Assembly (NCBI RefSeq): GCF_013369335.1
Contig: NZ_SZQJ01000036.1
Coordinates: forward strand, 62,001-126,000
From: Vibrio sp. JPW-9-11-11
Lineage (GTDB): Bacteria; Pseudomonadota; Gammaproteobacteria; Enterobacterales; Vibrionaceae
Direction: 5' to 3'
Length of the DNA stretch: 64,000 nucleotides
The notes beneath the pieces were generated by a model, which was given only the letters and a program-made list of their open reading frames with translations, was not told the origin of the DNA and ran no database searches. Positions 25,553 through 49,079 of the stretch are shown one piece after another. The position numbers and the translations under genes were made by a program. The number at the start of each line of letters is the position of its first letter. Positions within the stretch are counted from its first letter, which is position 1.

Positions 25553-25568
25553 TAACTTCAGTAAAAAA

Positions 25569-25588: not shown

Positions 25589-25651
25589 TTTTCTCTTTGC
25601 ACAGTTTTTAGTCTAACATGGTGTCATATTTTCGATGCTAGGAACTCAGCA

Positions 25652-25813: not shown

Positions 25814-27856
25814 CTTACCAATAATATATGAATCAAAGTGCTTTAACTCAACATCAAGTCCAGAAATAGCTGATTGAAGATTGTTGTAATCTTCACTAGT
25901 TCCTATGATTATCTGCTTACCTATTTTCTTTACTTCAGATGATTTTACGATGAACTCTTGAAAGCTTTCATTCTTAGCCTCTTGTTGGCGAGGTTCATCG
26001 AGGATTAGTAACCCCAAATGATTCGTTTCCTGTCCAGAAGCACTATCTAGAGTTAACATTGAATATAGATATGACCAAATAACACGAATGTTATCGCTGG
26101 CAGATGCCTCTGAATTGATATCCACCTCATTAAGTGCAGGTTTGAAGCTTCGTTCTGATATTTCGAAGTCTTTTAGATCACTACTGCTGTAACCAAACGC
26201 TTCTAGATTATTTACAAAACTATTTTTCAAAGAGCTTAACTTTCTACGATCATTAGCGCTTAAACCATTAAATGGGAGTGCACTTAGAGCTTTCTCCGCT
26301 ATACCCCACGACAACAAGGCTTCTTCCATATTTCCTTTGATTTCTTCTTCACTTCGGAGAGCTTTTTCCAATGAACTGATCTCTCCTTCCAGAAGAAGCT
26401 CTTTCTTGATATCACTTCTTGAAGGTACAGAAGTTGAGTCAATCAAACTATCTTTGATACTTCTTATGAGGGCACGAGTTTTAGTTAATTCAGAACGAGA
26501 CTCTCTCAACAAGTTTTCTTTTTTATCAAGTTTTAGTTCCTCTCCTTTCGCTAACGCATTATATGCATCTAATTGCTTCTCCAGATATTTTATATTGTCG
26601 CCTAAACCCAAGACCTTTGAGTCATTATCTCCTAACTCCGTTAACAGTGTTTCAGGCATTTTTCTTTGGCAGGTTGGGCATTGCTTTTGTACTATAGAAA
26701 AATTCTCTTGTGATCCTATTTCCTCAAGACGTTGGAGATCTTTATACTTTCGTAAACTATCTTGGACGTCATGGATCCTATCCTTAATTGAAACAAAGTA
26801 CTTATCAGATACTGACAAGTCCGAAAGTAACATACTGATGCTCTTTTCTTGGCTACTTAGAAGAGTTTGTTGTTGCTCTAAATCACGCTCTAGTCTGCTA
26901 AGTTTCTGAGAATCAAGCTTACTATTAGTGAACTCCTGCTTTAGCTTAATCAAAGCGGTATTTAAATTCTCAATACGCTCTTTATAGCTCACCGCATTGT
27001 CAGAATCGTAGAAATAAAGGTACGAACCATTGGCTAATTGTGTTTTCTTTCCAATTTTTTCGTCTAACTGATTCGAAACGAAACCATATGTTCTCTTCGC
27101 TTCATTCATGAGGTTATCAAGAGCTAATTCCCAAACTCTCTCAGCGTCTTTCTTCTTCTGGGTATGTTCTTGTCTTCTTTTTGCAACATCTCTAGCATCT
27201 AGGTCTAGGGTGAACTCGATTACTCGCTCAGATAGCTCTTTTATACCCAAGTACGTTGGCAATATGTTGAGAATACCGCCCCATCCACGCGTTTGCTCAA
27301 CATAGTTCATTGCAAATATGGCTTCTAGGTATAGTGGAGATTCACCACCGTTATACTTCGTAACTCTAGGAAGCTCTATCTCAAGGAAGTCAGCAAGCAG
27401 GTAGTGAAAGCCTCTCTCCCGTGATGCAGCTCCTTCAACCCTTAAGTAGTAATCTGAGCTTTCAATGTCATTCCTTTCGAGGACTTCTTCAACCGACAGG
27501 TCAAAATAAACGGAAATCAGATCTTTTCTATCTTCATTACTACTCCTCATAATCGTCATACGCTTATTCGAGTTAGAAATTTGAAGATATATTTTCGATC
27601 CAATTACACTAACTTTTCTTCCGCCCTCGACCCTCAACTGGCTGGTTAATGCTGTTTTTAAGGGTACTTTTCTCGATGGGCCTAAACAACCTTCCAAACC
27701 AAGTGCGTATACAATGGACTGTATACATGTTGACTTACCATGCGTGTTCTCAGCATGAATTATGTTGAGGCCTTGCGTGAAAGGAATGTCAGTACCATAA
27801 AGGCCATCATTGGTTTGAGTGCGAATAGATAGATTCTCTATTACAAGGTTTAACAT
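25808..27856 (-). CDS. Rad50/SMC-like ATPase of an ABC-three-component-type system
   Basis: This 682-residue protein has a split ABC ATPase. The N-terminal P-loop at about 35-43 is AENTHGKST, with Ala in place of the usual first Gly. Long coiled coils at about 220-380 and 410-530 flank a zinc-hook-like CPTC at 393-396. The C-terminal Walker B is LGLLILDEPRQQ near 615-625. This resembles the DUF3732-type ATPases I associate with ABC-3C conflict systems. The ATG at 27856 overlaps the upstream small gene by 7 bp. With that gene and the nuclease-fold protein before it, it forms a compact three-gene minus-strand operon. A role in sensing foreign DNA or RNA and switching on the nuclease partner is inferred. 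Confidence 0.78.
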   Translation of the reverse strand: MLNLVIENLSIRTQTNDGLYGTDIPFTQGLNIIHAENTHGKSTCIQSIVYALGLEGCLGPSRKVPLKTALTSQLRVEGGRKVSVIGSKIYLQISNSNKRMTIMRSSNEDRKDLISVYFDLSVEEVLERNDIESSDYYLRVEGAASRERGFHYLLADFLEIELPRVTKYNGGESPLYLEAIFAMNYVEQTRGWGGILNILPTYLGIKELSERVIEFTLDLDARDVAKRRQEHTQKKKDAERVWELALDNLMNEAKRTYGFVSNQLDEKIGKKTQLANGSYLYFYDSDNAVSYKERIENLNTALIKLKQEFTNSKLDSQKLSRLERDLEQQQTLLSSQEKSISMLLSDLSVSDKYFVSIKDRIHDVQDSLRKYKDLQRLEEIGSQENFSIVQKQCPTCQRKMPETLLTELGDNDSKVLGLGDNIKYLEKQLDAYNALAKGEELKLDKKENLLRESRSELTKTRALIRSIKDSLIDSTSVPSRSDIKKELLLEGEISSLEKALRSEEEIKGNMEEALLSWGIAEKALSALPFNGLSANDRRKLSSLKNSFVNNLEAFGYSSSDLKDFEISERSFKPALNEVDINSEASASDNIRVIWSYLYSMLTLDSASGQETNHLGLLILDEPRQQEAKNESFQEFIVKSSEVKKIGKQIIIGTSEDYNNLQSAISGLDVELKHFDSYIIGKL

Positions 27857-28323
27857 ATGATATTACCCTGAATGATATTGTTAATTCTTTGATCGTTAAA
27901 ATGGGATTTCGAGTAAGCATTGATGAAATCACTTTCGAGAATGAACAGATTCGAATCTGCATCTATTTTTTTTGCAAACTGCACCCCTTTAGGGGTAAGT
28001 TTGATACTCTTTGCATCATCAATTATGAATAGCTTTTCACCTATACCTATATCTATTGCTCGATCAACAAGCGGGTCAAAACGGATATTACTATTCTCAC
28101 GAGAAAGCAAACCTCCCCGATATGCAACACGCTTTTTATCTGATGAAACAAGTGCATAAAGCACTTGGATTTTTTTCAAGTTGGCTTTGTTACCAGAACA
28201 AAGTTTATACAGAATCAATACTAACAACGAAATACGCCAGAGGGGTCTAAGTTCAGCGTCTACAGAAGCGCCTCTATAGTTAAACTTAATTCCGTGTTGG
28301 GGTTCAATGTCAAATAAATCCAT
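27850..28323 (-). CDS. Middle component of the ABC-three-component-type operon
   Basis: This 157-residue protein starts at the ATG at 28323, whose A is also the last base of the upstream TAA stop (TAATG coupling); a TTG 33 bp further up is possible. It is mainly helical with a hydrophobic segment near 30-42 (LWRISLLVLILYKLC) and a winged-helix-like middle (LVDRAIDIGIGEKLFIID, then KLTPKGVQFAKKI). Small helical proteins between an ATPase and an effector are the middle components of ABC-3C systems. The assignment rests mainly on order and size. It overlaps the ATPase gene by 7 bp. Confidence 0.6.
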   Translation of the reverse strand: MDLFDIEPQHGIKFNYRGASVDAELRPLWRISLLVLILYKLCSGNKANLKKIQVLYALVSSDKKRVAYRGGLLSRENSNIRFDPLVDRAIDIGIGEKLFIIDDAKSIKLTPKGVQFAKKIDADSNLFILESDFINAYSKSHFNDQRINNIIQGNIIC

Positions 28324-29234
28324 TAGTGGAAGTCCAATGTACAGTTCATTAGCCAATCAGCAACAGTTCCGAGAGCAATGGTGTCGAGATTGTCTTCATG
28401 TAGTTTTGCAGAGTTTTCTAACTTCTCTCGCAACACATTTTTCTGATAAGCAATGCTTTGGGATTCAGGTGATGAATCTAAAGCTTCGATGAAAATTTCT
28501 TCAGCCCGTTTGTCCTTCGTCGAGGTTATAGCTTTGTGGAACTCAGGATAATCTTCCTTTAGTTCAGTTAGCATGTTTTGTGACATTATCGCCTTACGCG
28601 TTAAGAGACCTTTACCATTGGCAACAACACTTGGATTTGAGTTGAGTTTACTGAGTTTAGTAGTCAGGTTTGACATAAACTCCGTCGAAGTATCTTCTAT
28701 AAAAGAGGCTACATGATGTTCCTCTATGTCCGATATGTTCAACTTTAAAGTGGCGTACCCTGCCTGCAAAAGCATGGTTTCTTCTTTTTTAAACTCACTA
28801 CGATCCCAGATCAAAACTCTGAAATCGTTGTTGTCAACGTAATCGAGGTTTGCAGCCTTAACTTCTAAGGTCTTTTTGGTCGCATGAGCCACTAGGTCTT
28901 TTGTTTTGTGGGAGGGTACAACTAAAATCCATCTTTTGATTTTTAGATCCCCAAAAAAACCACTCATTTTATCTGTATTAGTAATAAACTTTCCAATGTC
29001 CCTAGTCATCTTATTACGTTGCTTTTCGTAAAGCTTAGAGACATTTTCTACTTCTTCAGGGCAATACATCTGGTAGGCGTGTCCATCTAGAGAGAAGCCC
29101 TCTATGCCGCCATCCCCCTTATCATGATCAGGTATAGGGATATAGTTCGCAGACGAGTAGCGTTCTTTCAAAAGGTCATTTGCATGGGTCTCCCACTCAT
29201 CAGGAAACCATACTTTGTCATTGCTCAATTCCAT
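28323..29234 (-). CDS. Restriction-endonuclease-fold protein, first gene of the ABC-3C-type operon
   Basis: This 303-residue protein starts at the ATG at 29234; a TTG 27 bp upstream is an alternative. The N-terminal domain has GDGGIEGF at 40-47 and YQMYCPEE at 54-61. This is the pattern of Mrr-like nuclease folds in which the usual QxK is replaced by a Cys-Pro-Glu-Glu form. The middle has a beta-rich segment (RWILVVPSHKTKDL, FRVLIWDRSEF), and the C-terminal third is helical. It is probably the effector or recruiter of the three-gene system. Because the usual catalytic Lys is not visible in the second motif, catalytic activity is uncertain. Confidence 0.6.
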   Translation of the reverse strand: MELSNDKVWFPDEWETHANDLLKERYSSANYIPIPDHDKGDGGIEGFSLDGHAYQMYCPEEVENVSKLYEKQRNKMTRDIGKFITNTDKMSGFFGDLKIKRWILVVPSHKTKDLVAHATKKTLEVKAANLDYVDNNDFRVLIWDRSEFKKEETMLLQAGYATLKLNISDIEEHHVASFIEDTSTEFMSNLTTKLSKLNSNPSVVANGKGLLTRKAIMSQNMLTELKEDYPEFHKAITSTKDKRAEEIFIEALDSSPESQSIAYQKNVLREKLENSAKLHEDNLDTIALGTVADWLMNCTLDFH

Positions 29235-29366
29235 TAAAATCAGCTCAATAATGCGTGACAATTAACATAAACTAAAACATAAGATTATAAGAACTTAATT
29301 ACTGATAAACAGTGAGCATAATCAAATTGTATCTATCTGTTCTATAAGGACATCTGATTTATTGTG

Positions 29367-29792: not shown

Positions 29793-30215
29793 AACCAAGC
29801 CTAACTAATCATCACATGTTTGTAATACTAGCCTCTTTAAAAAAGATATCTAACTCTGTCGAAAATAAGCAACCAGAACAATAAATTTGCATGTTTTATA
29901 AGTTTTTTTTGAGTTAGGAATCCAAGTGTACGATCCGTGAACAATTATTTCTTAAAGCAATGAAATATAAAGACATTATATTCTATATCGATTTATATAA
30001 GGAATAATAATTAAGCCTAATGAAAAACTGCAAATTCCATGTATCCCTTCAAATATCACATTGAATTACAAGCTTTTCTAATTCAGCTCCCTAAGCTCTA
30101 AGTCAATTATATAAGTTATAATAAATCCTTTATTTACAAACACTTACAAGCACACCCAGTTAGACAAACCCTAGAAAGGCTGCTAACAATATATTAGTAA
30201 GTGAGGATTAGGCAT
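29793..30215. promoter_or_regulatory. A+T-rich divergent promoter region upstream of tnsA
   Basis: These 423 bp separate the minus-strand cargo from tnsA and hold no credible gene. The sequence is strongly A+T-rich. The ribosome site GTGAGGA ends 8 bp before the tnsA ATG. No TnsB-type site was seen here, so transposase autoregulation at this promoter is not evident. Confidence 0.5.
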
Positions 30216-31079
30216 ATGAAAATAGTTAAGCAACCATACATAACAAACTATGAGCTCAGAAAATTAGAAAAACACTTAAAGAAGATTAAGAATGGTGAGT
30301 ACGAGCCATATATTACAGTTCGACGTTCAAATAGTGTCGGTCTATCTCATATTGTTTTCAGTCACAAGACGAAACGCTGCCATCACTTATTCAGCTTAGG
30401 TGAGCTTGCTCTATTCCTTCATCTTGAGCACGATCCTGAAGTCTTGGATATACAAGAGCAATACCCCTTACCGTTAAATGAAACTCTCAAGTGGGCTAAA
30501 TATCTGAATTATCGACACCCTGCTAAATACAAAGAACGGGATGGTAAAGATATTCCTGCTGCAACCATGACCACGGATTTCGTTGTCACCTTGTATGATG
30601 CGACAAGAGACCAGCTTGGCATTCAGCCGTATAACTATAAACCGAGCTCAGCACTAAGCACTGAATTTGAGCCTCCCCAAAAAGTCACACGAACCCAACA
30701 AAAGTTCAAAATTGAAGAGATGTACTGGGGGCATTACAACCATCATCTAACGCAAATAACAGATGAAGACTTAAACCCCAACAAAACATACAACCTTCAA
30801 TGGCTTAGAGAGACTTACCATCATGTACGCGAGAGCCAAATCGAAGGCCCACTGTGCGAAGGGATGTTAAACACTCTAAACAAGAGCCTTATGAACGACC
30901 CAGATAAAACTCTAAAGCAGCATTTGAATCACGCATCATTAGTACATGATGTAACCGAACTTGCTGCGTTAGAGATATTTCAACATCTTGCGTATTCAGG
31001 TCAACTAGACGTTGACCTGAATGAGCGCATAGAAGTTTTTCGCCCTGTAATGATGATTACGCAACACGATGAGAATTAA
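30216..31079 (+). CDS. tnsA: Transposition endonuclease TnsA
   Basis: TnsA cuts the 5' strands at the transposon ends, so that with TnsB the element is excised for cut-and-paste transposition. The ATG at 30216, 8 bp after GTGAGGA, gives 287 residues. Restriction-fold catalytic residues are visible as Glu63 (FSLGELALF), Asp121 (TTDFVVTL) and Lys142 within QPYNYKPSS, in the order known for Tn7 TnsA (Glu63, Asp114, Lys132). A C-terminal wing at about 155-285 contacts TnsC in the family. The stop overlaps tnsB by 11 bp. An intact TnsA predicts clean excision rather than cointegrates. Confidence 0.92.
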   Translation: MKIVKQPYITNYELRKLEKHLKKIKNGEYEPYITVRRSNSVGLSHIVFSHKTKRCHHLFSLGELALFLHLEHDPEVLDIQEQYPLPLNETLKWAKYLNYRHPAKYKERDGKDIPAATMTTDFVVTLYDATRDQLGIQPYNYKPSSALSTEFEPPQKVTRTQQKFKIEEMYWGHYNHHLTQITDEDLNPNKTYNLQWLRETYHHVRESQIEGPLCEGMLNTLNKSLMNDPDKTLKQHLNHASLVHDVTELAALEIFQHLAYSGQLDVDLNERIEVFRPVMMITQHDEN

Positions 31080-33246
31080 TCAAAAATTAGTCGATGGCAA
31101 AAAAGGGCTTGAATATCTTATCGTAGATATTTGCCAAGACCTCGACCAAATTGCTGTCACTCAGCTCAATGTTGAACGCCCTAAAAGGCCTCATACGATT
31201 ATGCTAAGTGATACGTTGAGGCAAATAGAGCTGGGCAAATGGAAAGTGCTAGAGCATTCCTTTAGCCCTTACCTATACATGTCGGACGAAGAGTTACTGA
31301 AGGATAAGAAGCGCAGAAAGTGGTTACAACGCAGAGATAGCAGCTTTAACATTATTGCCCCGTTAATCGATAACGACGAACTACGTTACAACTATCTTTT
31401 TATCGATAGCAGTTCAATCTTACATCGATTGATAGAAACATCAGGTCGCAGCCGCAGTTATGTAGCAAAAATTTTAAATCGTTACTGGTATTACGGTTCT
31501 CACGTCAATGCTCTACTCCCTCTATGGAGAAATTGCGGAACGAATCAGTCTTTACCTGAAGTACCGTCATTTGACCAAGACCCTGAGTTAGGCAAAAGTG
31601 GCCCGAAAACCAAATATGGAAGTCCTTATCGTGGAGTCACTCTACAAGACATTAAACATATTCGACGATTTGCTAAAACCATTCCAAACGGTGGCAAAGC
31701 TAGGCTGAGTGACCTTTACGATCAGTTTACACGCAAGTTCATGTATGCGCGTGTTAAACCAATGATTGAAGAAGCACATGAGATAGCTTTACCTGTTCCA
31801 AGGGCCAAACTCATTTCACGAAATGCATTTAAATATCATTTTAAGCAAAACGTAGATCAACTTGAATTGATAAGGAAGGCTGTCGGCACGACCAATTTTC
31901 AAAAAGACTACCGAGGCCGTGCAGGCCTTGCTCGACAGGGTGTTCGTGGCCCCACAAGTCGCTATGAAATAGATGCAACAGTCGTTGATCAATACATACG
32001 CTACCCCTACGACAAAACCAATCAGTTAGCCACGGGACGCCCTGTGATCTATCTAGTTGTAGATACGTGGTCTGGCATGTTTGTTGGCACTCACGCTTGT
32101 TTTCACGGCCCAGATTGGACTGGAGCATCACAAGCCCTTTTCAATGCTTTTACCAACAAAGTCCAGTTTGCTAAACGCTATGGCGTTGAAATTACTGAAA
32201 ACGAATGGCCGTGCCACCATGTCTGCTCACAGTTAGTCATGGATCGAGGTTCCGAGTATACAGACCGTAACATTGAAAGCATGCTTAAGGGTGAAATTGG
32301 CTTATCAATCGCCAGTTTCGCTCCGTATCATCGCGGGGATTGTAAAGGAACTGTCGAGAAAGCATTTGATATTTTTCATCAAAATGCTGTTCGATTTGTG
32401 CCTGGTCAAGTCATGAAAGTACCCAGCAAGGAAGAGCAACACGCTTCTAGAAAAGCGTCGATGTCCTTCGAAGCATTCATGGAAAAGCTCATAAGGACAA
32501 TCATTTATACCAATAACAACCGCCTTAGAAAGAACAACCATAACTTCGAGATGTCTCGTGATGATGTTGGTTTCTCTCCTAGAGACTTATATCTCTACGG
32601 GCTAGAAGAAATGGTGATACCGCCAGCTCAGATTCCTGAAGAGCGACTTCGTTTCGCATTGCTACCTGCTGACAAGGCGACTGTGAGAATGGAGGGCGTT
32701 TACTTTAAGGGGCTGTATTACAGCGCTAACAAAATCATTCATAAACAATGGTTAGACAAAGCTCGTAATTTTGGTCGATACACAGTGGAAGTTCGATACG
32801 ACCAAAATTCAACGAACTTTATTTGGTGTAAAGACCCTGAATCTAACGAACTAATTACTTTAGAACTCACTGATCGCTCTGAAGCGTATCGTAATCAAAT
32901 TTGGCAATCGACCCTTCATGAAATCGAATTAACCAAACAAAAACAAAGCCTTCATGAAGAACATTCATTCGCTAACAAAATTGAGTTCTTAAACAAACTG
33001 GATGAAATCGATAAACAAGCAAAAGCTGACGCTCGATACTTAAAAACATCGTCAGCAAAGTCTATCCAGACAGGTATCAAAGAACGAAAGAGTATCGTCT
33101 CTTCTATTGAACGCAGCAAACAATCTGAGCAGATAGCAGCAACCTTAAGTTCCGAAGATAACGCTAGCTCCACTGCTAAAAAGAATACCCAACACTTGGA
33201 AACACCTGATTTTTTTGACTTTGATGATGAACAAGATGATAGCTAA
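31069..33246 (+). CDS. tnsB: DDE transposase TnsB
   Basis: TnsB binds the end repeats and carries out 3' cleavage and strand transfer. Its 725 residues show helix-turn-helix DNA-binding regions in the first 280 residues and an RNase H-fold core with Asp302 (YEIDATVV), Asp392 (VMDRGSEY) and Glu430 (KGTVEKAF), the full DDE triad. A beta-barrel domain follows, then a polar, acidic tail (FFDFDDEQDDS), the type of tail that contacts TnsC. It overlaps tnsA by 11 bp and probably tnsC by 11 bp. It should recognise the six GATAAC...GGAAAC sites. Confidence 0.95.
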   Translation: MRINQKLVDGKKGLEYLIVDICQDLDQIAVTQLNVERPKRPHTIMLSDTLRQIELGKWKVLEHSFSPYLYMSDEELLKDKKRRKWLQRRDSSFNIIAPLIDNDELRYNYLFIDSSSILHRLIETSGRSRSYVAKILNRYWYYGSHVNALLPLWRNCGTNQSLPEVPSFDQDPELGKSGPKTKYGSPYRGVTLQDIKHIRRFAKTIPNGGKARLSDLYDQFTRKFMYARVKPMIEEAHEIALPVPRAKLISRNAFKYHFKQNVDQLELIRKAVGTTNFQKDYRGRAGLARQGVRGPTSRYEIDATVVDQYIRYPYDKTNQLATGRPVIYLVVDTWSGMFVGTHACFHGPDWTGASQALFNAFTNKVQFAKRYGVEITENEWPCHHVCSQLVMDRGSEYTDRNIESMLKGEIGLSIASFAPYHRGDCKGTVEKAFDIFHQNAVRFVPGQVMKVPSKEEQHASRKASMSFEAFMEKLIRTIIYTNNNRLRKNNHNFEMSRDDVGFSPRDLYLYGLEEMVIPPAQIPEERLRFALLPADKATVRMEGVYFKGLYYSANKIIHKQWLDKARNFGRYTVEVRYDQNSTNFIWCKDPESNELITLELTDRSEAYRNQIWQSTLHEIELTKQKQSLHEEHSFANKIEFLNKLDEIDKQAKADARYLKTSSAKSIQTGIKERKSIVSSIERSKQSEQIAATLSSEDNASSTAKKNTQHLETPDFFDFDDEQDDS

Positions 33247-34630
33247 TTATATACCTCACCCTAACTCTCAGATGGCACAAAATCCTCTGATTGAAGCGCT
33301 TGGAATGCCATTGCTACCTAAACAATTTATCCAGGCAACAACACTATCTCCTGACATGATGATTGATGTCAGTTCGCTCCCTACTGAGCATCATGGTTAC
33401 TACACCAGAACATTCATTGATAACCTATCTGAGTGCTATGTTGTTCAGGATGAAGCCCCACGCCTTTATGACACCGTATTTCGCATGATTGAACGAGGCT
33501 ATATCTATCGCAACCCTTTGGTGTATGGCGATATTAAACAATTGCAATTTGCCGACTCTATTGAAATACCTGAAGGGCAAGAGCGCACTCTAAAGCAAAC
33601 AGCAAATCAGCAGAGTTTTTTGGTAGCAGGTCTATCAGGTCGCGGAAAGTCAGCGATGGTAGAAAGCATCTTGTCTGCCATTCCTCAAGTCATTTCACAT
33701 CAAGAGTACCAAGGACAAAAGTTCATCTACGAACAGATTGTCTGGCTCAAGATCGATATCCCAACAGCTCGCGGGCAGCGTGCACTACTCTGGAGGATTC
33801 TTGAGTCCATCGATTCGGTAACTGGTGAGAATTATTACGAATCACATCAGAAAAGCTCAGTTACAGCACTAATGATTGCGGTTCGTAAGGCTCTACTCAT
33901 CCATGGTGTTGGGATTATTGTTCTAGATGAAGCTCAGAACCTATCTGAAACTCGACAGTACGAGAAAGTCGGTAACAACGAAAACGCCACACTAAAGTTC
34001 GTGGAAGAGTTGTTTAACAAGGTTGGTGTACCACTATTACTCGTCGGGACACTATCAACACTTAATCTGTTTTCTAAAGAGATGACTGCCGCTAGGCGAA
34101 TTGGAAAGACAGGGTCGCTAATCTTAGAGCAATGTGCTGTTGAAAGTTCGTTTTGGAAACGCTTCATTAAGCAAATGTGCCCGACACAATTACTTAAGAA
34201 TCAGACAACTGACATTGATACTCTAACACGCCATGTTCACTACTTATCAGCAGGGATCCCTGCTATCGCGAGCAGCCTAATAAAGGCCACATTGTCTTAT
34301 CTGACTTATCTAACACCAAACAATCAAGACCTAAGCATGGCTGCTCTAGACCATGTATTCAAAGAACAATTTCTCTTGGTCTCAGGCGCATTAACGGCAC
34401 TAAAGCGTGGTCAATTTTATAAATATGAGGATTGCAATCCTTTATCTCAATTGCACTCTGTTCAACAGGATTTGTTTTCTGAAAGTGGCTCAGATATTGA
34501 CGGCAACCAAGTCTATAAGAAATCCATTAGAAGCTCTCGTTCTGCCGCAAACCTTACTGAGAAAGACCAAGAAATGCTAGAGAACTTAACTCCTGAAGCC
34601 TTACTAGCGCAGGCTAGAAAGTATGAATAA
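33236..34630 (+). CDS. tnsC: AAA+ transposition regulator TnsC
   Basis: TnsC is the ATP-dependent matchmaker between the target selector and the TnsAB transposase. Walker A is GLSGRGKS at about 132-139 and Walker B is IIVLDEAQNLSE near 225-236. Candidate starts are ATGs at 33224, 33227 and 33236; I use 33236 (464 residues), although an upstream one would add only four residues. The C-terminal tail (ENLTPEALLAQARKYE) may contact TniQ. The stop overlaps tniQ by 8 bp. Confidence 0.92.
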   Translation: MIANYIPHPNSQMAQNPLIEALGMPLLPKQFIQATTLSPDMMIDVSSLPTEHHGYYTRTFIDNLSECYVVQDEAPRLYDTVFRMIERGYIYRNPLVYGDIKQLQFADSIEIPEGQERTLKQTANQQSFLVAGLSGRGKSAMVESILSAIPQVISHQEYQGQKFIYEQIVWLKIDIPTARGQRALLWRILESIDSVTGENYYESHQKSSVTALMIAVRKALLIHGVGIIVLDEAQNLSETRQYEKVGNNENATLKFVEELFNKVGVPLLLVGTLSTLNLFSKEMTAARRIGKTGSLILEQCAVESSFWKRFIKQMCPTQLLKNQTTDIDTLTRHVHYLSAGIPAIASSLIKATLSYLTYLTPNNQDLSMAALDHVFKEQFLLVSGALTALKRGQFYKYEDCNPLSQLHSVQQDLFSESGSDIDGNQVYKKSIRSSRSAANLTEKDQEMLENLTPEALLAQARKYE

Positions 34631-35537
34631 CATCTTGTACCTACTACCGAACGAACACCTAAGAAGCTTCCTTAGCCGAGTTCATACTATGTCCCCTTTT
34701 GGCACTTTTGCTACTTCAGCAAAACGTGTAGGGCTGGCAAATTTCAGTGCGTCGCCAGTTACAGTCATGTCTGACCTAGACTCCATACTGATGAATATTC
34801 TTAATGATGACAATCGTTCGATTTGGCAAATGCATATGCACGGTAACGTCATCGAGTCTTTCCTCAACGAGCGAGAGAAGCGCGAACTACCATTGTTTTT
34901 GAAAGGAAAGCCATATGACATCGACTTTACGCAATCCCAAACGGTACATAATCGTTTGTGGCGTTACTGCAAAGACTGTATTGCTGAAGACTTAGATACT
35001 GTTGGTATTTCATATTTTCACCAACATCACCAACTACAGGGGGTTTTTCACTGCTACAAACACGGAACGAGGCTCATTAATAGCTGTTCTTCATGCAGTT
35101 ACACTGTAAAAAATCTTAGTCGAATGCAAACCCCAACATTAATCTGTCCGAGCTGTGGTTCCAGTATGATAAGTCAGGGAGCGTATTATGATGAAACAAT
35201 GCTAAGAGTTGAACAGCTTATGTTGGCGTTAAATGAGCAAACGCTCACCCTATGCCTTGAATCCGTGCAACAAAATACGTTGGCACGCATGGGGTTTACG
35301 CTTGAGCAAACTGATACGTTGGCTTTTAAGAAAGCTTGTGGCGATTGGTACAAAGAAATTTTCATGACTCTAGGGAAAGGCGCTCTAGAGCAGTACTTCT
35401 CGAATACGAGGAAAGTAAATGATCACATAATTTCTCCTACGATGAGGACAACACGCTTATTTTTATCGACTTCAACAAACAGATTTAGTCCACCACTGAT
35501 CTACATTCTCATGCTGGTTGCTACAGGACAGTTATAG
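34623..35537 (+). CDS. tniQ: Short TniQ-family target selector
   Basis: This TniQ/TnsD-family protein recruits TnsC to target DNA. Its 304 residues start LYLLPNEHLRSFLSRVH, the usual TniQ opening. Zinc-finger cysteines and histidines follow: CKDC near 117-120, HCYKH, CSSC near 155-158 and CPSCGS near 177-182. It is shorter than TnsD and lacks the long C-terminal DNA-reading region. It overlaps tnsC by 8 bp. With no Cas genes present its role is open: a partner of the second TniQ, or a selector for other targets (inference). Confidence 0.85.
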   Translation: MNNILYLLPNEHLRSFLSRVHTMSPFGTFATSAKRVGLANFSASPVTVMSDLDSILMNILNDDNRSIWQMHMHGNVIESFLNEREKRELPLFLKGKPYDIDFTQSQTVHNRLWRYCKDCIAEDLDTVGISYFHQHHQLQGVFHCYKHGTRLINSCSSCSYTVKNLSRMQTPTLICPSCGSSMISQGAYYDETMLRVEQLMLALNEQTLTLCLESVQQNTLARMGFTLEQTDTLAFKKACGDWYKEIFMTLGKGALEQYFSNTRKVNDHIISPTMRTTRLFLSTSTNRFSPPLIYILMLVATGQL

Positions 35538-35541
35538 ACCT

Positions 35542-37125
35542 ATGTACCTGCACGAAATAGCTGGTGAAGCCTTTTATAGCCTTGTTGCGCGACACCACGC
35601 AGCCTCACCAAGACGCTCGCTACGCGAAAAAAACCGAGCTCTCCTAGGGCGCACAGATGTTCGCATTAACCCCCAGCTTCCTTGCATGCTCGAACAAGTT
35701 GCCAAACAGACTTCAATAGATGCGGAAAGGTTGTTGTTTAACAGTACTTGTTTCCCTGTTGTCGGCGCTTGCCTTCAAGATAACAAAAGCAAAGCAAGAC
35801 TTAGATTGCACCTGTTGAGCAATGATGGCAGTCACATCGCGGTCTTATCACGTACTACTTCTTCTCGGTTAAGGTTTAGCAGCGCACTAAAGTTCTGTCC
35901 GCAATGCCTTGAGGAAGACACATTGAAATGGGGGCATGGTATTTGGCGTACCGTACATCAGTATTGCGGTATGTTCGTTTGTCCAAAGCATGCTTGTTGG
36001 CTGCAATATGCACCGACAGATGCCGATGGCCTTAACAAACGCATCGAACTACCACCAACACCTTACGATAGATGTTTCCATGGTTCTGATCTTTGTTTAG
36101 AACGAGCTTTGAGGTTATCGCAATTCATCAGTAGTTGGCATCGCTATGAATACGAACGTCGATACGAGCATATTGCTACACCCTCTCACTCATCTTGGAT
36201 GATTAAGGCCCATTTGTTAACTCCGAAAGGACAGATCAGGCAATCAGAAGCCGTCAATCGTCTACAAGACTTTTGGGCTCCTCTATTTGCTGGTGCAAAG
36301 CTACTGCCTTCGAAGCTATATAAATTCAATTTCTTAAGGTGCCTTCTCCTAAACGACCACTACAACCATTACATACAGCATGCATTGGTTGGTGCTTTCT
36401 TTGCGAAGAACGCCAAGTGTTACTTTCGACAAACTTCTCAGGTCTCGAACTATTGTAGTCGGGAATCTCATAAGCCTCGTGTCTGTCTATCCGAGTTGGC
36501 CTCAGGAAACTCGCTTCGTTCTGTCGCCAAGGCGACAGGATGTTCGGTTGGCTTTCTAGCAGCCATGGCGCAACGCAATGGGGTCACAATCAAGCATCGA
36601 TTTAAAAGACTCAACGATGCATTAGTCGACCAAATATTGAGACTCGCTTTTCGCGGGGTTCATAGACGAGATATCGCCAAATTATGCGGTGTTAGCGTTG
36701 GTACTGTAGAACAGCAAATAAATGCGATGTCAGGATTATCCGCATGGAGAAAACGACTCTGGTTCTGCCAAAAACGACATCAATATCGTCAAACACTCCA
36801 GAAGATCATTTCCCAGAATCCAACATTAACTCGGACAGAGATTAAAAATTCGAGCAGTTGCTACATGTGGCTATTTCGATATGACAAGGACTGGCTAAAC
36901 CAGCACTTACCAAAACGAGAGCCTGCTAAGTACCATCAATCTATTGATTGGAATCTGGCAGATAAAAAGCTGGCTAAACAAATTAAGCGACACGTAAAGA
37001 AGGCTACTTCAGTTTCACACGTCGAAAGGCAGGTGGACTCACAACACTCATTAATCAAAAACAGAAAACGCCTACCCCTTTCGGTTAGGCAAGCGGAAAA
37101 AATCGTCTCAAAATCCCAAAATTAG
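35542..37125 (+). CDS. tnsD: TnsD-like TniQ protein, likely reader of the gcvP 3' end
   Basis: This 527-residue TniQ-family protein starts at the ATG at 35542 (MYLHEIAGEAFYSLVARHHA), 4 bp after tniQ; a TTG 24 bp upstream is possible. A zinc finger (FCPQC near 115, CPKHACWL near 147) is followed by helix-turn-helix-like blocks (LRSVAKATGCSVGFLAAMAQ near 325 and RRDIAKLCGVSVGTVEQQI near 372) and a basic C-terminal region with FRYDKDWLNQHLPK, as in TnsD. Tn7 TnsD binds the end of glmS. By position, this protein probably binds the end of gcvP and fixes insertion just after the stop codon (inference). Confidence 0.85.
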   Translation: MYLHEIAGEAFYSLVARHHAASPRRSLREKNRALLGRTDVRINPQLPCMLEQVAKQTSIDAERLLFNSTCFPVVGACLQDNKSKARLRLHLLSNDGSHIAVLSRTTSSRLRFSSALKFCPQCLEEDTLKWGHGIWRTVHQYCGMFVCPKHACWLQYAPTDADGLNKRIELPPTPYDRCFHGSDLCLERALRLSQFISSWHRYEYERRYEHIATPSHSSWMIKAHLLTPKGQIRQSEAVNRLQDFWAPLFAGAKLLPSKLYKFNFLRCLLLNDHYNHYIQHALVGAFFAKNAKCYFRQTSQVSNYCSRESHKPRVCLSELASGNSLRSVAKATGCSVGFLAAMAQRNGVTIKHRFKRLNDALVDQILRLAFRGVHRRDIAKLCGVSVGTVEQQINAMSGLSAWRKRLWFCQKRHQYRQTLQKIISQNPTLTRTEIKNSSSCYMWLFRYDKDWLNQHLPKREPAKYHQSIDWNLADKKLAKQIKRHVKKATSVSHVERQVDSQHSLIKNRKRLPLSVRQAEKIVSKSQN

Positions 37126-38302: not shown

Positions 38303-39952
38303 TCACGAAGGAAGCGAATTTATAAACAAACCATTCAACTGAACCAAACTCAAAAAATATGACGGTGCTGAAGTTTTGAGCTCTCCTCTCGAATTCTCAC
38401 GCAGTTCACTTTGACAAAGAACACAAAGTTCTTCTGCACGTGTTATTCCTACATAGTGAAGGTTCATTTCCTGTTGTAAGTCAGGGTATTGCGGAGGATC
38501 ATTCCAATCGCCTGTATATCTTCGGTAAGGGAAGTTCCACTCTTCCAATCCGAAGTGAAGCACAACTTTGAACTCTAATCCTTTCGACTTGTGCAATGTC
38601 ATGATTTGCACTTCTTCACGATTTATTGGTTTGTATGACTTTAGTGCTAAGTCATCCAACAGTATTTCAGCGAATACTTCTAACTCTCCAGACTTTACCT
38701 CCAAGTCAAACAAAGTTATGAGCTCGCTTGCAATAGTAACTAGCCGTGTATGGTCTTCCTCTTGCTTCAGCATACGAACTTGCTCTCTCGCATAGCTACT
38801 TTTACGACGAATATTGGGTGAGCTATTCCTAGCAAACTTATCGCATATTTCCTGTGCGCTAACAATTTTGCCGTACTTATACTCAATTAAAGCTGTCAAA
38901 AAATCAGAAGCGGTTGTGCCAATCGCGTTTAGCTTGTCATCGACGTACAACCTATTTGGCACCTCTAGATTCTCAGACACTAATTTTAAAATTCTTTCCG
39001 TTTTTGCCAATATGGCAATATCTGAAGCTTTTTCTACTTTAAATTTTTTCCCAGCGATCCATTCGCTTATTAAATCCGAGACTGTAGAAGCGCATGTCGG
39101 TAACCATCCCTCCATCACTAACCGAACGACGCGTAGATCACCCTCTTCATGTTCCACCAAGTTACAAGTAGGTCTTTTTAGGCGGCTGGCATAGTTAACG
39201 ATCGAAGGATGACTCCGATGATTCAAATCAATCTCAAAGTGCTTGAAACCAGAACCTTCACGCGTCAATTCCTCAAGTAGCTTGGGGTCACCTCCCCTAA
39301 AACCATATATCGATTGATCGTTATCACCAACTGCTATACCAACTAATCCTAGTTCGACGAGTTCAAGAAACAGCTCGTGCTGAGCAAGTGAGCTATCCTG
39401 ATATTCGTCAACAAATACATGTGTATATCTGGCCTTTATGTATCTCCTTGCTCCCTCAGAGTTTTTCAATACAAACAATGCGAGTCCCGAAAAGGAGCTC
39501 ATCCAAAGCACATTTTGTTCGTAAAGAGAATTAAATCCCCCATCATTCATTACATCTTCAAGAGTTGGGGCCTGATAATTCTGACTTAGTTGTGAGAGGT
39601 GATCTTCAGTCAGTTTCTTAACTATCTCGCAACCTGCAACTTGTCCTCCCCATAATCTTTCTAAAAAAGGGGCTATCAATTCACTGAAGCAAAAACTATC
39701 TATGGTGCCAAAGAAACTGGCTTTTGTATCATGCCCGTTTGCTTCGCATTTCTGTCTAAGCTCTGTGCTCGCCTTATTGGTAAAAGATATACCGATAACA
39801 CCTTTATAACTTGGAAGCATTGGAGTCAAAGCACGCACTTTCTCTTTAACAACTGTTGTTTTACCGCTACCAGGACAGGCAGTTATTACGGCACTACCAT
39901 CCTGATAATCGACAGCGTTTTTTTGTTGTTCGGTTAGCTTCAAAATAGTCAT
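38303..39952 (-). CDS. gajB: Gabija protein GajB, UvrD-like helicase
   Basis: GajB is the UvrD/Rep-type helicase partner of GajA in Gabija antiphage defence. Its 549 residues show Walker A ACPGSGKT at 25-32, Walker B VFVDEYQDSS near 190, GDNDQSIYGFRGG, and the later motifs MTLHKSKGLEFKVV and HYVGITRAEE. The length is in the range of known GajB (about 490-550). The ATG at 39952 overlaps the gajA stop by 4 bp. In known systems GajA tetramers bind GajB and cleave phage DNA when nucleotides run low. Confidence 0.9.
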   Translation of the reverse strand: MTILKLTEQQKNAVDYQDGSAVITACPGSGKTTVVKEKVRALTPMLPSYKGVIGISFTNKASTELRQKCEANGHDTKASFFGTIDSFCFSELIAPFLERLWGGQVAGCEIVKKLTEDHLSQLSQNYQAPTLEDVMNDGGFNSLYEQNVLWMSSFSGLALFVLKNSEGARRYIKARYTHVFVDEYQDSSLAQHELFLELVELGLVGIAVGDNDQSIYGFRGGDPKLLEELTREGSGFKHFEIDLNHRSHPSIVNYASRLKRPTCNLVEHEEGDLRVVRLVMEGWLPTCASTVSDLISEWIAGKKFKVEKASDIAILAKTERILKLVSENLEVPNRLYVDDKLNAIGTTASDFLTALIEYKYGKIVSAQEICDKFARNSSPNIRRKSSYAREQVRMLKQEEDHTRLVTIASELITLFDLEVKSGELEVFAEILLDDLALKSYKPINREEVQIMTLHKSKGLEFKVVLHFGLEEWNFPYRRYTGDWNDPPQYPDLQQEMNLHYVGITRAEELCVLCQSELRENSRGELKTSAPSYFLSLVQLNGLFINSLPS

Positions 39953-41643
39953 TCCTGAACAGTCTTAATCAATGCTAATAATGGTTTAGCAATGTTACTG
40001 TTAGCTAAATCACTCATATTTCCGCGTAACGCGATCACTAATTCTCGCATTCTAACTGCTTTCTTATCTTGCAAATAGTTTATAGCGGCAGCGGCAGATG
40101 TCTTATTAAGTGCTTTCAAAGTTGGCTGACTGAATTCACTCACTAAGTCTGTTTCAAGGTCTACTCTAGATAGAAACACATCATATGTTTCAAGTTGTTC
40201 ACTAACAACTTGCCAGTCAGGTTCGGGCATGTCACAAGGAGTTAACTTAACTTCAGAATGCTCCCACTTTTCTTCATTGATAATTGTCAAGCATCTATTG
40301 ACACCTGCATATTGCCAGAGCTCCTTGTTTGGCACTTTCGAAATGTCGTTGTCAGTCCTCATTACGACAGGAATATCCAATCCTTCTAAAATATCGATGA
40401 ACACCCTAAAATCGACTCCATCAACCGAGAGTATCGATAAATTTAGAAAATCTAAGTCATAGCCAAGTCCCTCTGCGAGTGCGTGATAAAAAATAACCTC
40501 TGATGGCCCTTCAACCAACAACACTCCGTTAGAAAAAAACGTCTCTGCTGGGATGATGCTCATACGATAACCCATCCCGTCCCATGCTTCGCTAATCCGC
40601 TCTGAACAACCATCATCAGCAGCCCATGTTTCTCCATCCTCAACATAGAGCCTTACAATTGAGTCAGGACTAAAACCCTCAGCAATCTGTGGAGAGTGAG
40701 TAGTTATGATCGTCTGGCCGCTTAACTCTTCTACAAGATAATTGGCTAATTTCCTTTGCTGATGAGGGTGCAAATGAGCTTCAGGTTCTTCGATCACATA
40801 GAACACCACACTATCATTTTCAGCATTTTCTCGGCTACTCCGAGATTTCCATAATGCCAGTAGTATCTGGTTGTTCCTTCCATCCCCCCCAAGGAGAACG
40901 TCGGAACCATTAGTATTCGCTCCCAGTTGCAACTTCTCAATGAAGTCACCCACCTGTATAGCTCCAGTATCTAATTGAACCTCATAATCACTATTGTGGT
41001 GTGCAAGCTTTTTAAGCTCTACATTTACGTCATTCGTTGCGGCTTCTACATATTTCAGAGCTGATACTTTCTTGTTCAAGGACTTCAAGTCGCTACTTAT
41101 CTCAGCCATTAGAGCTTCATCACATTCAGCTTCATCTTTTAGTAAAGACTGTTGGGCATGCTTCAATAATTGTTTCTTTTCTCTTTGTATGAATTTATCT
41201 AAATCCCTTTTTGACTGAACATACTTCAAGTTCATACATTTTAGGTACTTGCTCCGAGGGAAGTCATCAAGTGACTCCATAGATTCACCCATTAAGATTC
41301 TTGGTTCAAGGTTATCTCTACTTGCTCGATACTGTAGATAAACTTCTCCATTGTCACTCACACACCCTTTCAAGGTAGAGAGCACCGATTCCTCTACCAC
41401 CTCGTCAAACTTAATGGTAATAGCAAGCTCTGTGCTTATAGCTTCTTTGCCGATATGAAAATCCAACTCGGACGCTTCAACATCAGCCTCAGAGAAGCTT
41501 CTATCAAGTAGAAGCCTAAGAGCATGAAGCATGTTTGATTTGCCTACATCATTTGCTCCGATTACGAGGGTTTTCTCGTTGAAGTTAATATCGGTATCTT
41601 CGTAATTACGAAAACCCTGTAAATGCATGTTTGAAATTTTCAA
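39949..41643 (-). CDS. gajA: Gabija protein GajA, OLD-family nuclease with ATPase and TOPRIM domains
   Basis: GajA is a sequence-sensitive DNA endonuclease held back by ATP. Its 564 residues (about 578 in the reference protein) have Walker A GANDVGKS at 29-36, signature region LLGGDGRNNQILLAL, Walker B FYVIEEPEAHLHPHQ and the TTHSPQ switch. The TOPRIM domain follows from about 370, with LLVEGPSEVIFYHAL (catalytic Glu), SVDGVDF and MRTDNDIS (Asp pair). All key residues are present. With gajB on the same strand and a 4-bp overlap, this is a standard Gabija unit. It is divergent from the STAND gene. Confidence 0.92.
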   Translation of the reverse strand: MKISNMHLQGFRNYEDTDINFNEKTLVIGANDVGKSNMLHALRLLLDRSFSEADVEASELDFHIGKEAISTELAITIKFDEVVEESVLSTLKGCVSDNGEVYLQYRASRDNLEPRILMGESMESLDDFPRSKYLKCMNLKYVQSKRDLDKFIQREKKQLLKHAQQSLLKDEAECDEALMAEISSDLKSLNKKVSALKYVEAATNDVNVELKKLAHHNSDYEVQLDTGAIQVGDFIEKLQLGANTNGSDVLLGGDGRNNQILLALWKSRSSRENAENDSVVFYVIEEPEAHLHPHQQRKLANYLVEELSGQTIITTHSPQIAEGFSPDSIVRLYVEDGETWAADDGCSERISEAWDGMGYRMSIIPAETFFSNGVLLVEGPSEVIFYHALAEGLGYDLDFLNLSILSVDGVDFRVFIDILEGLDIPVVMRTDNDISKVPNKELWQYAGVNRCLTIINEEKWEHSEVKLTPCDMPEPDWQVVSEQLETYDVFLSRVDLETDLVSEFSQPTLKALNKTSAAAAINYLQDKKAVRMRELVIALRGNMSDLANSNIAKPLLALIKTVQE

Positions 41644-45989: not shown

Positions 45990-46277
45990 GACACCCCCAA
46001 GACACTGTATACATAAACAGTACCCATATATGTTTCAATTTCAATACTAGGTTTCATTGATGAAACAAATACATGAATCCAATCTCAAATTTTAGAATCC
46101 ATAGTGATACAACTATCCATAACAACCCAAAAGATAGAGGAGTTTCGTATTCTGAGCTGTTTATATACTGCTTGTGTGGTGGAAATTCACAGTTCGTAAA
46201 GTGCGGTTCGCAAAGTACGGTTCGGGTTTTACGAACTGAACAATCACTCTAAGTGAGAGAGTTCTATTGAAGAGGAA
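45990..46277. promoter_or_regulatory. Promoter region of the last cargo gene and inner part of the L-like end
   Basis: This A+T-rich stretch holds the likely promoter of the minus-strand nuclease-membrane gene and a 49-bp inverted-repeat block at 46190-46238. No gene is supported. Confidence 0.4.
46190..46238. repeat. Inverted repeat with internal direct repeats near the L-like end
   Basis: CAGTTCGTAAA (46190-46200) is inverted as TTTACGAACTG (46228-46238). Between them, AAAGTGCGGTTCG and AAAGTACGGTTCG are direct repeats. It lies 40 bp inside the innermost L-end TnsB site. It may be a regulatory or architectural site, or a trace of another small element. Confidence 0.6.
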
Positions 46278-46417
46278 GTTTTCAACTTAGTTAACCAAAC
46301 CTGATGGCTTCATTTGCCATTAAGCGGTAGGAGTTTGCAACTTGGTTATTTTTGAGAAGTATTCCAGATGGCTGATTTAGAAAGCTAGCTAGTTTCCATC
46401 TTAGTTATCTGTGATCA
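46278..46417 (-). repeat. L-like end with three spaced TnsB-type sites
   Basis: Inverted copies of the TnsB-type site lie at 46278-46295 (GTTTTCAACTTAGTTAAC), 46333-46350 (GTTTGCAACTTGGTTATT) and 46392-46409 (GTTTCCATCTTAGTTATC), followed by the terminal TGTGATCA. Spacings of 55 and 59 bp contrast with about 20 bp at the other end, as in the left end of Tn7. Confidence 0.85.
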
Positions 46418-46422
46418 CCAGG
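46418..46422. repeat. Target-site duplication, far side
   Basis: CCAGG directly follows the ...GTGATCA terminus and equals 25482-25486. Confidence 0.88.
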
Positions 46423-46448
46423 TGATCACAGATAACCAAGTTGGAAAC
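46423..46448 (+). repeat. Extra copy of the R-like transposon end outside the element
   Basis: TGATCACA followed by GATAACCAAGTTGGAAAC is identical to the first 26 bp of the gcvP-proximal end. With CCAGG before it and T after it, 32 bp are identical (25482-25513 and 46418-46449). It carries one TnsB-type site in the same orientation as the R-like end and is followed by ACTAACTTGAATAACAAAA, similar to the sequence after site 3 of the R-like end. It is best read as the remnant of an earlier insertion at this site. Confidence 0.8.
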
Positions 46449-46465
46449 TAACTTGAATAACAAAA

Positions 46466-46485
46466 GGCGAACCGTTTGGTTCGCC
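46466..46485 (+). terminator. Second copy of the gcvP-type terminator
   Basis: GGCGAACC-GTTT-GGTTCGCC is identical in stem and loop to the hairpin at 25569-25588. In the interrupted site without the element, it would lie 52 bp after the gcvP stop, so it may be the native gcvP terminator. Confidence 0.85.
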
Positions 46486-46591
46486 TTTCTGTTTTGCGTT
46501 ATATGGATCCTTATTTCCCACAAATAATTATTGGCATATGCCATAAATGGGATGTACAGTGGTGGTGTTCCTCAGTCAAAAGGAGAACCCT

Positions 46592-47086
46592 ATGTTATTT
46601 GCCATTCCTAGTCGCGAATTGTCTCTTTCCAATCACTTTGCCAAAGCTCCACAGATAGTACTTTGGGATAGTCAAAGCCTAACTGAACGTATGATCGAGC
46701 TCCCCGAGTCTTCAAACTGCTGTGGTCACAAGAAGTTTTGGATTAAGACATTGCAAGACAACCAAGTGGATGCTGTCGTTGTTCGCTCTATAGGCACTAA
46801 TATGCTAAACACCTTGTTAAAGCTGAATGTGGCAGTGCTAAGTGCGCCGCGCGGTTTTGATATAACTAACTTTGATCAAAGTCTGTTAACTCCAGTGACA
46901 AACCTCGGCTTTGCACGACCATCACCTAATAGCAAAAAACACGGCTGCGCAACGCACTCTGACTCGCATCGATTACAACGCCCTTCTTATAATGGCGAGC
47001 TTAAGGCCCACAAGCTTTCACCAACAACGATGAAGCATCTGACAAAAGCCTTCGAACGCGCCACCCTACCTGAGAAAAAGAGATGA
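46592..47086 (+). CDS. NifX/NifB-type dinitrogenase cofactor-like protein
   Basis: This 164-residue protein belongs to the Nitro_FeMo-Co fold family, small proteins that bind metal clusters or are relics of that fold. The ATG at 46592 after AGGAG gives MLFAIPSRELSLSNHFAKAP, with the usual IPS...NHF opening. The core ends with LKLNVAVLSAPRG. The tail is polar. It overlaps the following NqrM-like gene by 4 bp, and a DUF134 gene is next; DUF134 and NifX-like genes are often neighbours. The organism is not implied to fix nitrogen. Confidence 0.8.
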   Translation: MLFAIPSRELSLSNHFAKAPQIVLWDSQSLTERMIELPESSNCCGHKKFWIKTLQDNQVDAVVVRSIGTNMLNTLLKLNVAVLSAPRGFDITNFDQSLLTPVTNLGFARPSPNSKKHGCATHSDSHRLQRPSYNGELKAHKLSPTTMKHLTKAFERATLPEKKR

Positions 47087-47298
47087 CCTATATACTGTGT
47101 TTTTTAGTGTTTTTAGGCGTGATAGTGTTGATGGCAGTCGGTGTCATTCTGCAACGAAAAACCCTACAAGGCAGTTGTGGCGGGCTCGCAACGCTCAAGA
47201 TAGAAAGAGAGTGCAATTGCGTGAGCACATGTGATGAGCACTCGTATCGGCTATATCAAATTCAAGAGCCGAAAGACAGAACTATGATTCGCGACTGA
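47083..47298 (+). CDS. NqrM-like (DUF539) small membrane protein
   Basis: This 71-residue protein has one N-terminal membrane helix (YILCFLVFLGVIVLMAVGVI), then QRKTLQGSCGGL, CNC and CDEH. This is the Cys pattern of NqrM, which helps insert iron into the Na+-translocating NADH:quinone reductase. The true nqrM normally sits by the nqr operon, so this is probably a paralogue. It starts inside the end of the NifX-like gene and its 3' end overlaps the convergent DUF134 gene by 17 bp. Confidence 0.75.
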   Translation: MTYILCFLVFLGVIVLMAVGVILQRKTLQGSCGGLATLKIERECNCVSTCDEHSYRLYQIQEPKDRTMIRD

Positions 47299-47563
47299 TC
47301 ATGATCGCCTGACCAAGAACAAGGCTTTGAGCAACTTTGGCTCGTGCACGTTTGACGATATTGCCAAACGTCTGTCTAGAGACCCCCATACGAGTCGCGG
47401 CTTCAAGCTGACTTAACGCTTCAAGATCGGCTAAGCGTATCGCTTCAAGTTCATCTGCGAGTAGATTGATCTGATTGAGTTTCGACAGTGGCACCCCGTT
47501 GGGTTTGAAGCACTCATACGGCGCGGTTCCGCATATATTTCGCTCTTTCTTTGGTCGAGCCAT
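47282..47563 (-). CDS. DUF134 family protein with helix-turn-helix
   Basis: This 93-residue protein starts MARPKKERNI and has the DUF134 landmarks FKPNGVPLS, DELEAIRLADLEALSQLEAA and GVSRQTFGNIVKRARAK. The last resembles a sigma-like helix-turn-helix, so it is probably a DNA-binding regulator of its NifX-like neighbour (inference). It is convergent with the NqrM-like gene, with a 17-bp 3' overlap. Confidence 0.85.
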   Translation of the reverse strand: MARPKKERNICGTAPYECFKPNGVPLSKLNQINLLADELEAIRLADLEALSQLEAATRMGVSRQTFGNIVKRARAKVAQSLVLGQAIMISRES

Positions 47564-47586
47564 GTTCTCTAATCCAGTGGTATTTT

Positions 47587-48000
47587 ATGTCTATCCAGAT
47601 CCCAGAAAATCACCAACACTGTTCGGTGTGCTGTCAGCCTTTTTTTAACCGTCACACTGTCATTGACTTTACTTTAACGTCGGATGGAGGGGTTGAAGGT
47701 AAAATTGTACCAACAGAAAAAGTGCAAGGCTATCAAGATGTCATGCAAGGCGGTTTAATCACCACTCTGCACGACTCAGCCATGACACATTGTTTGTTTG
47801 CTCAAAACATTCACGCCATGACGGCACAGTTAAATGTACGTTTTCTTAAACCCATCCCGCTCAACTCTGTTGTTTGGGTTAAGGCCCGCTGCCTAAACAG
47901 TAAGCAGAGGATGCACACACTACAAAGCGACATCTTTGTTGATGGAGTTTGTCACTCTCGAGCGGAGGCGAAATTCATGCAAAGTTTCGACGCGAAATAA
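47587..48000 (+). CDS. PaaI-type hotdog thioesterase
   Basis: This 137-residue protein has a hotdog fold of the PaaI/thioesterase group. MQGGLITTLHDSAMTHCLFA is the typical helix with HD, and MTAQLNVRFLKPIP is the central strand. It probably hydrolyses an acyl-CoA of unknown chain. The ATG at 47587 begins MSIQIPENHQHCSVC. The N-terminal CSVCCQPFF is Cys-rich, which is unusual and may bind a metal. It is divergent from DUF134. Confidence 0.75.
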   Translation: MSIQIPENHQHCSVCCQPFFNRHTVIDFTLTSDGGVEGKIVPTEKVQGYQDVMQGGLITTLHDSAMTHCLFAQNIHAMTAQLNVRFLKPIPLNSVVWVKARCLNSKQRMHTLQSDIFVDGVCHSRAEAKFMQSFDAK

Positions 48001-48080
48001 CGCTCAAACTCCGCGAGGAGAAAGCAAGTGATGCTGAGATTGGTTACACTGATGGGGTGCTATAAACATAAGGACTCCCT

Positions 48081-49025: not shown

Positions 49026-49029
49026 CGCA

Positions 49030-49055: not shown

Positions 49056-49079
49056 CTATGGATTAATCTCGCTTACCGA

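Follow-up and report, generated by a model that had tools for sequence, protein, structure and literature searches.

Introduction

It is already known that Tn7-like elements can use a single attachment site repeatedly, and Parks and Peters are said to have described in 2007 how serial insertion and the remnants that it leaves build islands at attTn7. Among retroelements, a solo LTR is the one end that remains after recombination between repeats. The locus described here differs from solo LTRs in that the end belongs to a DNA transposon and its hairpin is homologous to host DNA. The element found here behind gcvP resembles Tn7 in having TnsABC together with TnsD and in lying, in one orientation, just past the 3' end of a conserved gene, which is glmS in the case of attTn7 (accessible text of PMC2918618). 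Both produce a 5-bp duplication and carry several TnsB sites per end. They differ in target and spacing, 9 nt past the gcvP stop codon as against about 20 bp behind glmS for Tn7, and also in that the ends of the gcvP element start with TGA and its R-end hairpin resembles the terminator of the target gene. In the dual TniQ-TnsD elements of Faure et al. 2023 (PMC10293859, accessible text), a shorter TniQ and a longer TnsD are adjacent, as they are here; neither gcvP nor glycine occurs in the accessible main text of that paper, and gcvP was not found in the accessible text of PMC8649781. In the Vibrio cholerae CAST Tn6677, the TnsB sites of the right end are accompanied by a palindrome that lies 97-107 bp from the boundary (accessible part of PMC10201428), comparable to the hairpin of the gcvP element at about 80-105 bp, but there the palindrome is connected with the orientation of integration and not with a target-gene terminator. 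Our literature search, which lay mostly outside subscription papers, returned no report joining Tn7-like elements with gcvP or glycine dehydrogenase. What is added here is the gcvP site, a candidate hinge at the sequence level and, across many vibrios, traces of old insertions that can be counted.

The element behind gcvP

The DNA analysed, called the window below, is a stretch of 64,000 bp from a Vibrio genome (G000 in the comparisons). It contains an element of 20,931 bp at 25487-46417, flanked on both sides by CCAGG and inserted 9 nt 3' of the gcvP stop codon (Table 1). Pfam matches on the element were TnsD (PF15978, E=1.2e-26), TnsA (PF08722, E=8.5e-10, with both N and C domains), a weak Mu-transpos_C match (E=7.9e-5), AAA_22/TniB and TniQ. 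The tniQ product is short (304 aa) and the tnsD product longer (535 aa), and their genes lie side by side. No CRISPR genes were among the Pfam matches examined in the window. The R end has three TnsB-type sites, and further sites are found in the L end. By its genes, ends, duplication and insertion site, the element is predicted to be a Tn7-like transposon. The fixed distance from gcvP proposed in the initial annotation was borne out, as insertion is 9-10 nt past the stop codon in the window genome and in G157, G112 and G046. The TnsB proteins of the window and of V. aestuarianus G023 are 100% identical (rounded), the TnsD proteins only 74%, a contrast that we read as a mosaic element, the target selector of which may have been exchanged or may be evolving separately.

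Table 1. Features at the gcvP locus of the window (position 1 is its first nucleotide)
Feature	Position	Strand	Evidence
gcvP (glycine dehydrogenase), presumed target gene	22613..25477	+	Pfam GDC-P E=3e-190; sequence
5-bp target duplication CCAGG, near copy	25482..25486	.	sequence
gcvP-proximal (R) end of present element, three TnsB-type sites	25487..25568	+	sequence
Hairpin within R end, look-alike of native gcvP terminator	25566..25591	+	sequence, folding, native copies
Lamassu-type cargo genes, matches to LmuA, LmuC, LmuB	25808..29261	-	PADLOC
tnsA, tnsB, tnsC, tniQ, tnsD of present element	30201..37125	+	Pfam
Gabija-type cargo genes, matches to GajB, GajA	38303..41643	-	PADLOC
Far (L) end of present element, 170 bp taken for model	46248..46417	-	sequence
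Target duplication CCAGG, far copy	46418..46422	.	sequence
Second R end, first 27 bp, one TnsB-type site, probable older-element remnant	46423..46449	+	27/27 identity to 25487-25513
Element-type spacer and hairpin, possibly element-borne or element/native hybrid terminator	46450..46488	+	sequence, terminator scan
Stretch of uncertain origin with Nitro_FeMo-Co-type and thioesterase-type genes, old cargo or native	46489..48064	+	synteny comparison

A second R end outside the element

The initial annotation had noticed a second R-like end directly outside the element, and the present analysis agrees: an exact direct repeat of 32 bp, consisting of CCAGG and the first 27 bp of the R end, brackets the element, the sequence from 46423 onward being identical to 25487-25513 at 27/27 positions. 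The repeated part of the R end had been given as 26 bp, a slight undercount. By a simple equal-base estimate, about 7e-12 exact 27-mers would be expected in the window by chance. In the outer end a single TTGGAAAC-type site is followed by AACTTGAATAAC and then by the hairpin. TnsB-type sites are at offsets 8, 29 and 48 of the inner end and at offset 8 only of the outer end, so that sites 2 and 3 are absent as had been stated. The spacer behind the site is AACTTGAATAAC in the outer end and AACTTCAGTAAA in the inner end, and this difference shows that the outer end was not newly copied from the present one. The outer hairpin was called at 46463-46488, and its 26 bases, AAAGGCGAACCGTTTGGTTCGCCTTT, are also present in the inner end; the description of the two hairpins as the same terminator thus stands for these bases, though not as a feature of the element only, given its likeness to the native gcvP terminator (below). 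Both hairpins fold strongly (-18.8 and -20.4 kcal/mol, z -5.9 and -4.9). A simple terminator scan called the outer hairpin and missed the inner one (0 found).

A search of the whole window genome with the 27-mer pattern, allowing up to 3 mismatches, found the two R-end copies and the L end, and nothing else. Scanning of 25401-64000 gave one L end, which is that of the present element, two R ends and one tns set. From the end of the outer hairpin, positions 46485-48064 had no match in the comparison set of 130 + 40 sequences; synteny with the relative G216 restarts at 48,065. The genes at 46547-47086 and 47551-48000, between the outer end and the resumed synteny, may be native or old cargo. An Rfam search of 25000-52000 gave no match.

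gcvP downstream regions in the genus

The end pattern, at up to 3 mismatches, was matched in 47 of 227 genomes of the genus and had no match in the other 180, which speaks for the non-native origin that the initial annotation had assumed. The refuting condition named there, an end-like sequence native to every strain that never carried an element, therefore does not hold. Where gcvP is free of an element, the stop codon leads straight to the native terminator, and typically about 30 nt separate it from a GCGAACC/GGTTCGC hairpin. This hairpin was present (at up to 2 mismatches, within about 200 nt) in 86 of the 110 gcvP downstream regions without a first-family R end, 79 of them exact, and a 14-base pattern of it occurs at four places in the window genome, two being at the gcvP locus. 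These native copies indicate that the hairpin is gcvP-like and that the R end carries a look-alike.

A census by rule of 130 gcvP downstream regions, the best 130 of 186 gcvP matches, gave 19 with a first-family end, 7 with an end of a second family (TGAGGATAACTAATTAAGTTGGTTAAC) and 104 with neither; being the better-ranked matches and not a random draw, these numbers are not frequencies. Inspection by eye showed more strongly decayed ends, or other ones, in some of the 104 (G083, G173, G180), and 27 of the 47 genomes with the end pattern fall outside the census. A matching empty site for the element of G166 (V. barjaei) was found in G035.

Elements beside older ends in other genomes

Seventeen elements, defined by an L-type end and with G195 left out, were compared. 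Six adjoin an older end, in line with the repeated use of the site that the initial annotation had implied: those of the window, G023, G111 (decayed), G022 and G036 lie beside an old end of the first family, and that of G021 beside one of another family. The remaining 11, as judged by eye, run into sequence without such an end. The G021 element is nearly the same as that of the window: its interior, compared over 1,412 bases behind the hairpin, and its L end, compared over 170, each have 1 mismatch, and TnsD is 100% identical. It has its own duplication, GTGGT, followed by the family-2 old end. Since a near-identical element thus has another family's end for its neighbour, the outer end is a property of the site and not of the element. 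In G036 the new element lies beside an old end that still has three sites, and no L end was detected within 20 kb. G023 has an L-end relic 2.5 kb past its outer R end.

Matching 5-bp duplications were found in 10 of the 17 (the window genome, G166, G157, G164, G046, G092, G104, G021, G022 and G036). In G121 the two copies are one base apart, and in G023, G111 and G213 they disagree. In G037 a 13-bp stretch, TCAGTTTTATTGA, and not 5 bp, is repeated either side of the element. These cases are counted against re-insertion beside a remnant. G135 and G145 lack the R end that a comparison needs.

Number of sites in the R ends

The distance from terminus to hairpin was determined for 51 R ends, including the outer ends of G000, G023, G022 and G036 (the decayed outer end of G111 was dropped by the pattern) and three that are separated from gcvP or are not demonstrably next to it (G081, G051, G213). 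It was 82-84 bp with three sites, 61-64 bp with two and 41-43 bp with one; the exceptions were one divergent end with 52 bp and five without a recognised hairpin. One-site ends made up 21 of the 51. Successive classes are about 20 bp apart, which is the site repeat, and this spacing, together with the differing hybrids in G070, G161, G216 and G002, indicates that contraction occurred more than once. One site would be the end point of contraction because no repeats are left. Since the ends are related by descent, these counts are not independent events.

Three sites were present in 10/10 ends from genomes with a first-family TnsD (E<=1e-127) versus 12/41 of the others (Fisher p=5e-5, indicative as the sequences are related). 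In three of those ten genomes tnsB has stops or is split (G117, G022 and G036). The three-site ends without tns (12/41) imply that contraction need not follow loss, and we read the contraction as one that may be tolerated after mobility has been lost. Efficient integration of the related Vibrio CAST (VchCAST) requires at least two TnsB sites in the right end (accessible part of PMC10201428), and by this analogy a one-site end is probably immobile. Comparison of one-site ends with empty sites of the same flank gave no clean pair among the sequences compared.

Survival of the R end and probable exchange at the hairpin

In a search at equal tolerance, 45 genomes had an R-type end and 17 an L-type end; 15 had both, 30 R only and 2 L only (binomial p=2.5e-7 for R only versus L only, relatedness ignored). 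This comparison leaves out G195, which is L-like at 3 mismatches; with it, the counts become 30 to 3. G117 is a fragmented assembly, and L relics occur among the R-only genomes in G081, G184 and G197. In the two L-only genomes, G135 and G145, a copy of the native terminator region replaces the R end, and 42 and 50 bp of it, respectively, are identical to the copy past the L end. We infer that gcvP always keeps one hairpin close behind it and that its position in between lets the R end survive.

Several loci appear chimeric at the hairpin when compared with native parents chosen by hand. To the left of it, G038 resembles a native site at 87% and the G023 element at 64.5%; to the right the values are 48.7% and 92%. 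G175 and G145 are similar, and G090 is weaker (72/47 left, 55/71 right). Between the window and G021, 9 of 86 positions differ in the R end and loop, and 1 in the next 1,412 (p=4e-11). The chimeras and this contrast suggest that ends have been exchanged, the break probably lying within the hairpin. Such an exchange could plausibly come about by natural transformation in which gcvP supplies the homology on one side. Identical R ends with unrelated interiors (64 pairs among 22 three-site ends) were also considered as evidence of exchange; they were not counted, because functional conservation of the ends suffices to explain them.

Origin of the outer end

The repeat, the duplication, the missing sites, the absence from most relatives and the recurrence in other species can be read directly from the sequences. 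They make it very probable that the sequence at 46423-46488 comes from the R end of a Tn7-like element, older but of the same family, which would have been lost and its end contracted before the site was used again. The older element would have inserted at the same place behind gcvP and then, presumably by deletion, have been lost except for its R end and possibly up to 1.6 kb more. Three TnsB-type sites would have been cut to one via recombination between near-repeats, as had been suggested from the repeats themselves and as the quantised end lengths support. The present element, probably directed by TnsD to the 3' end of gcvP, would finally have re-inserted at the same base pair and so have duplicated CCAGG in front of the old end. 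That end may have persisted through its position between gcvP and the hairpin that became the gcvP terminator, and the hairpin may act as a hinge where homologous recombination exchanges ends and interiors. This is the history that the initial annotation had put forward in outline, and its recurrence in G023, G111, G022 and G036, with a different old end in G021, argues for it. Its wording that the older element had decayed to its end describes the outcome well, except that up to about 1.6 kb more, as far as the synteny from 48,065, may also be old element. A model in which a clean solo end is left was tried and rejected, because in G040, G176 and G079 about 0.7-3.5 kb of additional DNA precedes the return of synteny with G152 and because G214 retains an element interior shared with G023; both were counted against clean loss.

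Tandem islands had also been considered possible. Two complete elements could have stood side by side, and the distal one could have lost all but its R end once the present element was in place; such a course differs from the one preferred above in the order of events only. Intact tandem pairs were not seen among the genomes examined, the nearest case being the new element of G036 beside its three-site end, and no L end was detected at 46,490-64,000 of the window. Given this three-site neighbour and the L-end relic in G023, we regard the tandem as unlikely but deserving of attention. The identity and direct adjacency of the 27 bp might also point to a by-product of the present insertion, in which transposition, one-ended or otherwise aberrant, placed a copy of the element's own R end outside. 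The outer end, however, has one site, not three, and a different spacer, the 5-bp duplication is clean, and the near-identical element of G021 has a different outer end, which leaves this explanation very improbable. Much the same low probability attaches to selection for a one-site end, for example as a weak mark of target immunity or as a permissive landing pad. Immunity is known for Tn7 where an element already sits (accessible text of PMC11406308) and 21 of the 51 ends have one site, but insertions have occurred directly beside one-site (G000, G023, G022) and three-site (G036) ends, and selection is unnecessary if one site is the natural end of repeat contraction.

If the outer sequence were native gcvP downstream DNA, the likeness would have evolved in the element. 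The hairpin, native-like in the 86 of 110 regions described above, would fit, but TGATCACAGATAACCAAGTTGGAAACT is missing from empty sites and from 180/227 genomes and, where found, starts at the insertion point of the element. For the 27-bp part a native origin is largely refuted, and overall we give it scarcely any credence. The window genome is a draft of 36 contigs, in which misassembly has to be considered; the exact repeat, however, is just 32 bp long, and since an independent assembly of V. aestuarianus LMG 7909 (G023) has the same arrangement, as do further independent genomes, an artefact has a negligible chance of being the cause.

Beyond the older-element origin preferred here, a more general reading is offered tentatively, as one that we hold to be possible and somewhat short of probable. 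The family may carry a copy of the target terminator in its gcvP-side end, which would restore gcvP termination after insertion. Hairpin homology would then be common to empty sites, elements and remnants and, together with gcvP, would allow ends to be swapped or stripped, strand one-site ends and leave the next element between direct repeats, here of 32 bp, for possible deletion. The gcvP site might in this way be a reusable parking slot maintained by target-gene mimicry. It can now be tested how large defence islands (Lamassu- and Gabija-type) leave a "safe" site again, and why one transposon end outlives the other. For annotators, an end-like sequence behind gcvP need not signal an element.

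Further arrangements at the gcvP site

The elements of G111 and G164 have just about 1.5 kb between R and L ends and are without tns genes. Ends of the second family, TGAGGATAACTAATTAAGTTGGTTAAC, were found at the same gcvP position in loci L243, L244, L246, L248 and L252, contracted forms included, and no first-family tns matches were present in the 8-20 kb read at the second-family loci. In G051 a family-2 R end adjoins gcvP and a first-family three-site end with a different hairpin follows 140 bp further, an arrangement that we read as probable stacking of ends from two families. Three family ends occur in G213, one of them directly against the native terminator, and an R end of this genome is away from gcvP, possibly owing to an inversion or rearrangement. 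The three-site R end of G081 is also away from gcvP and is without a gcvP-like hairpin; an L-end relic is about 2.9 kb off. Outside the genus, Photobacterium chitinilyticum (L242) has a related element (TnsD 53%) behind an apparent gcvP, the tail of which was read by eye, with a CTTGC duplication, a three-site R end and the same hairpin.

Two other repeats were noted in the window. Intergenic sequence of about 235 bp at 49105-49347 resembles, at 76-80%, stretches close to gcvP in G003 and, in reverse orientation, in G045, and is possibly a small mobile repeat. The ORF at 2092-3966 holds 39-bp near-repeats, rich in Arg and Gly codons, at 3765-3857.
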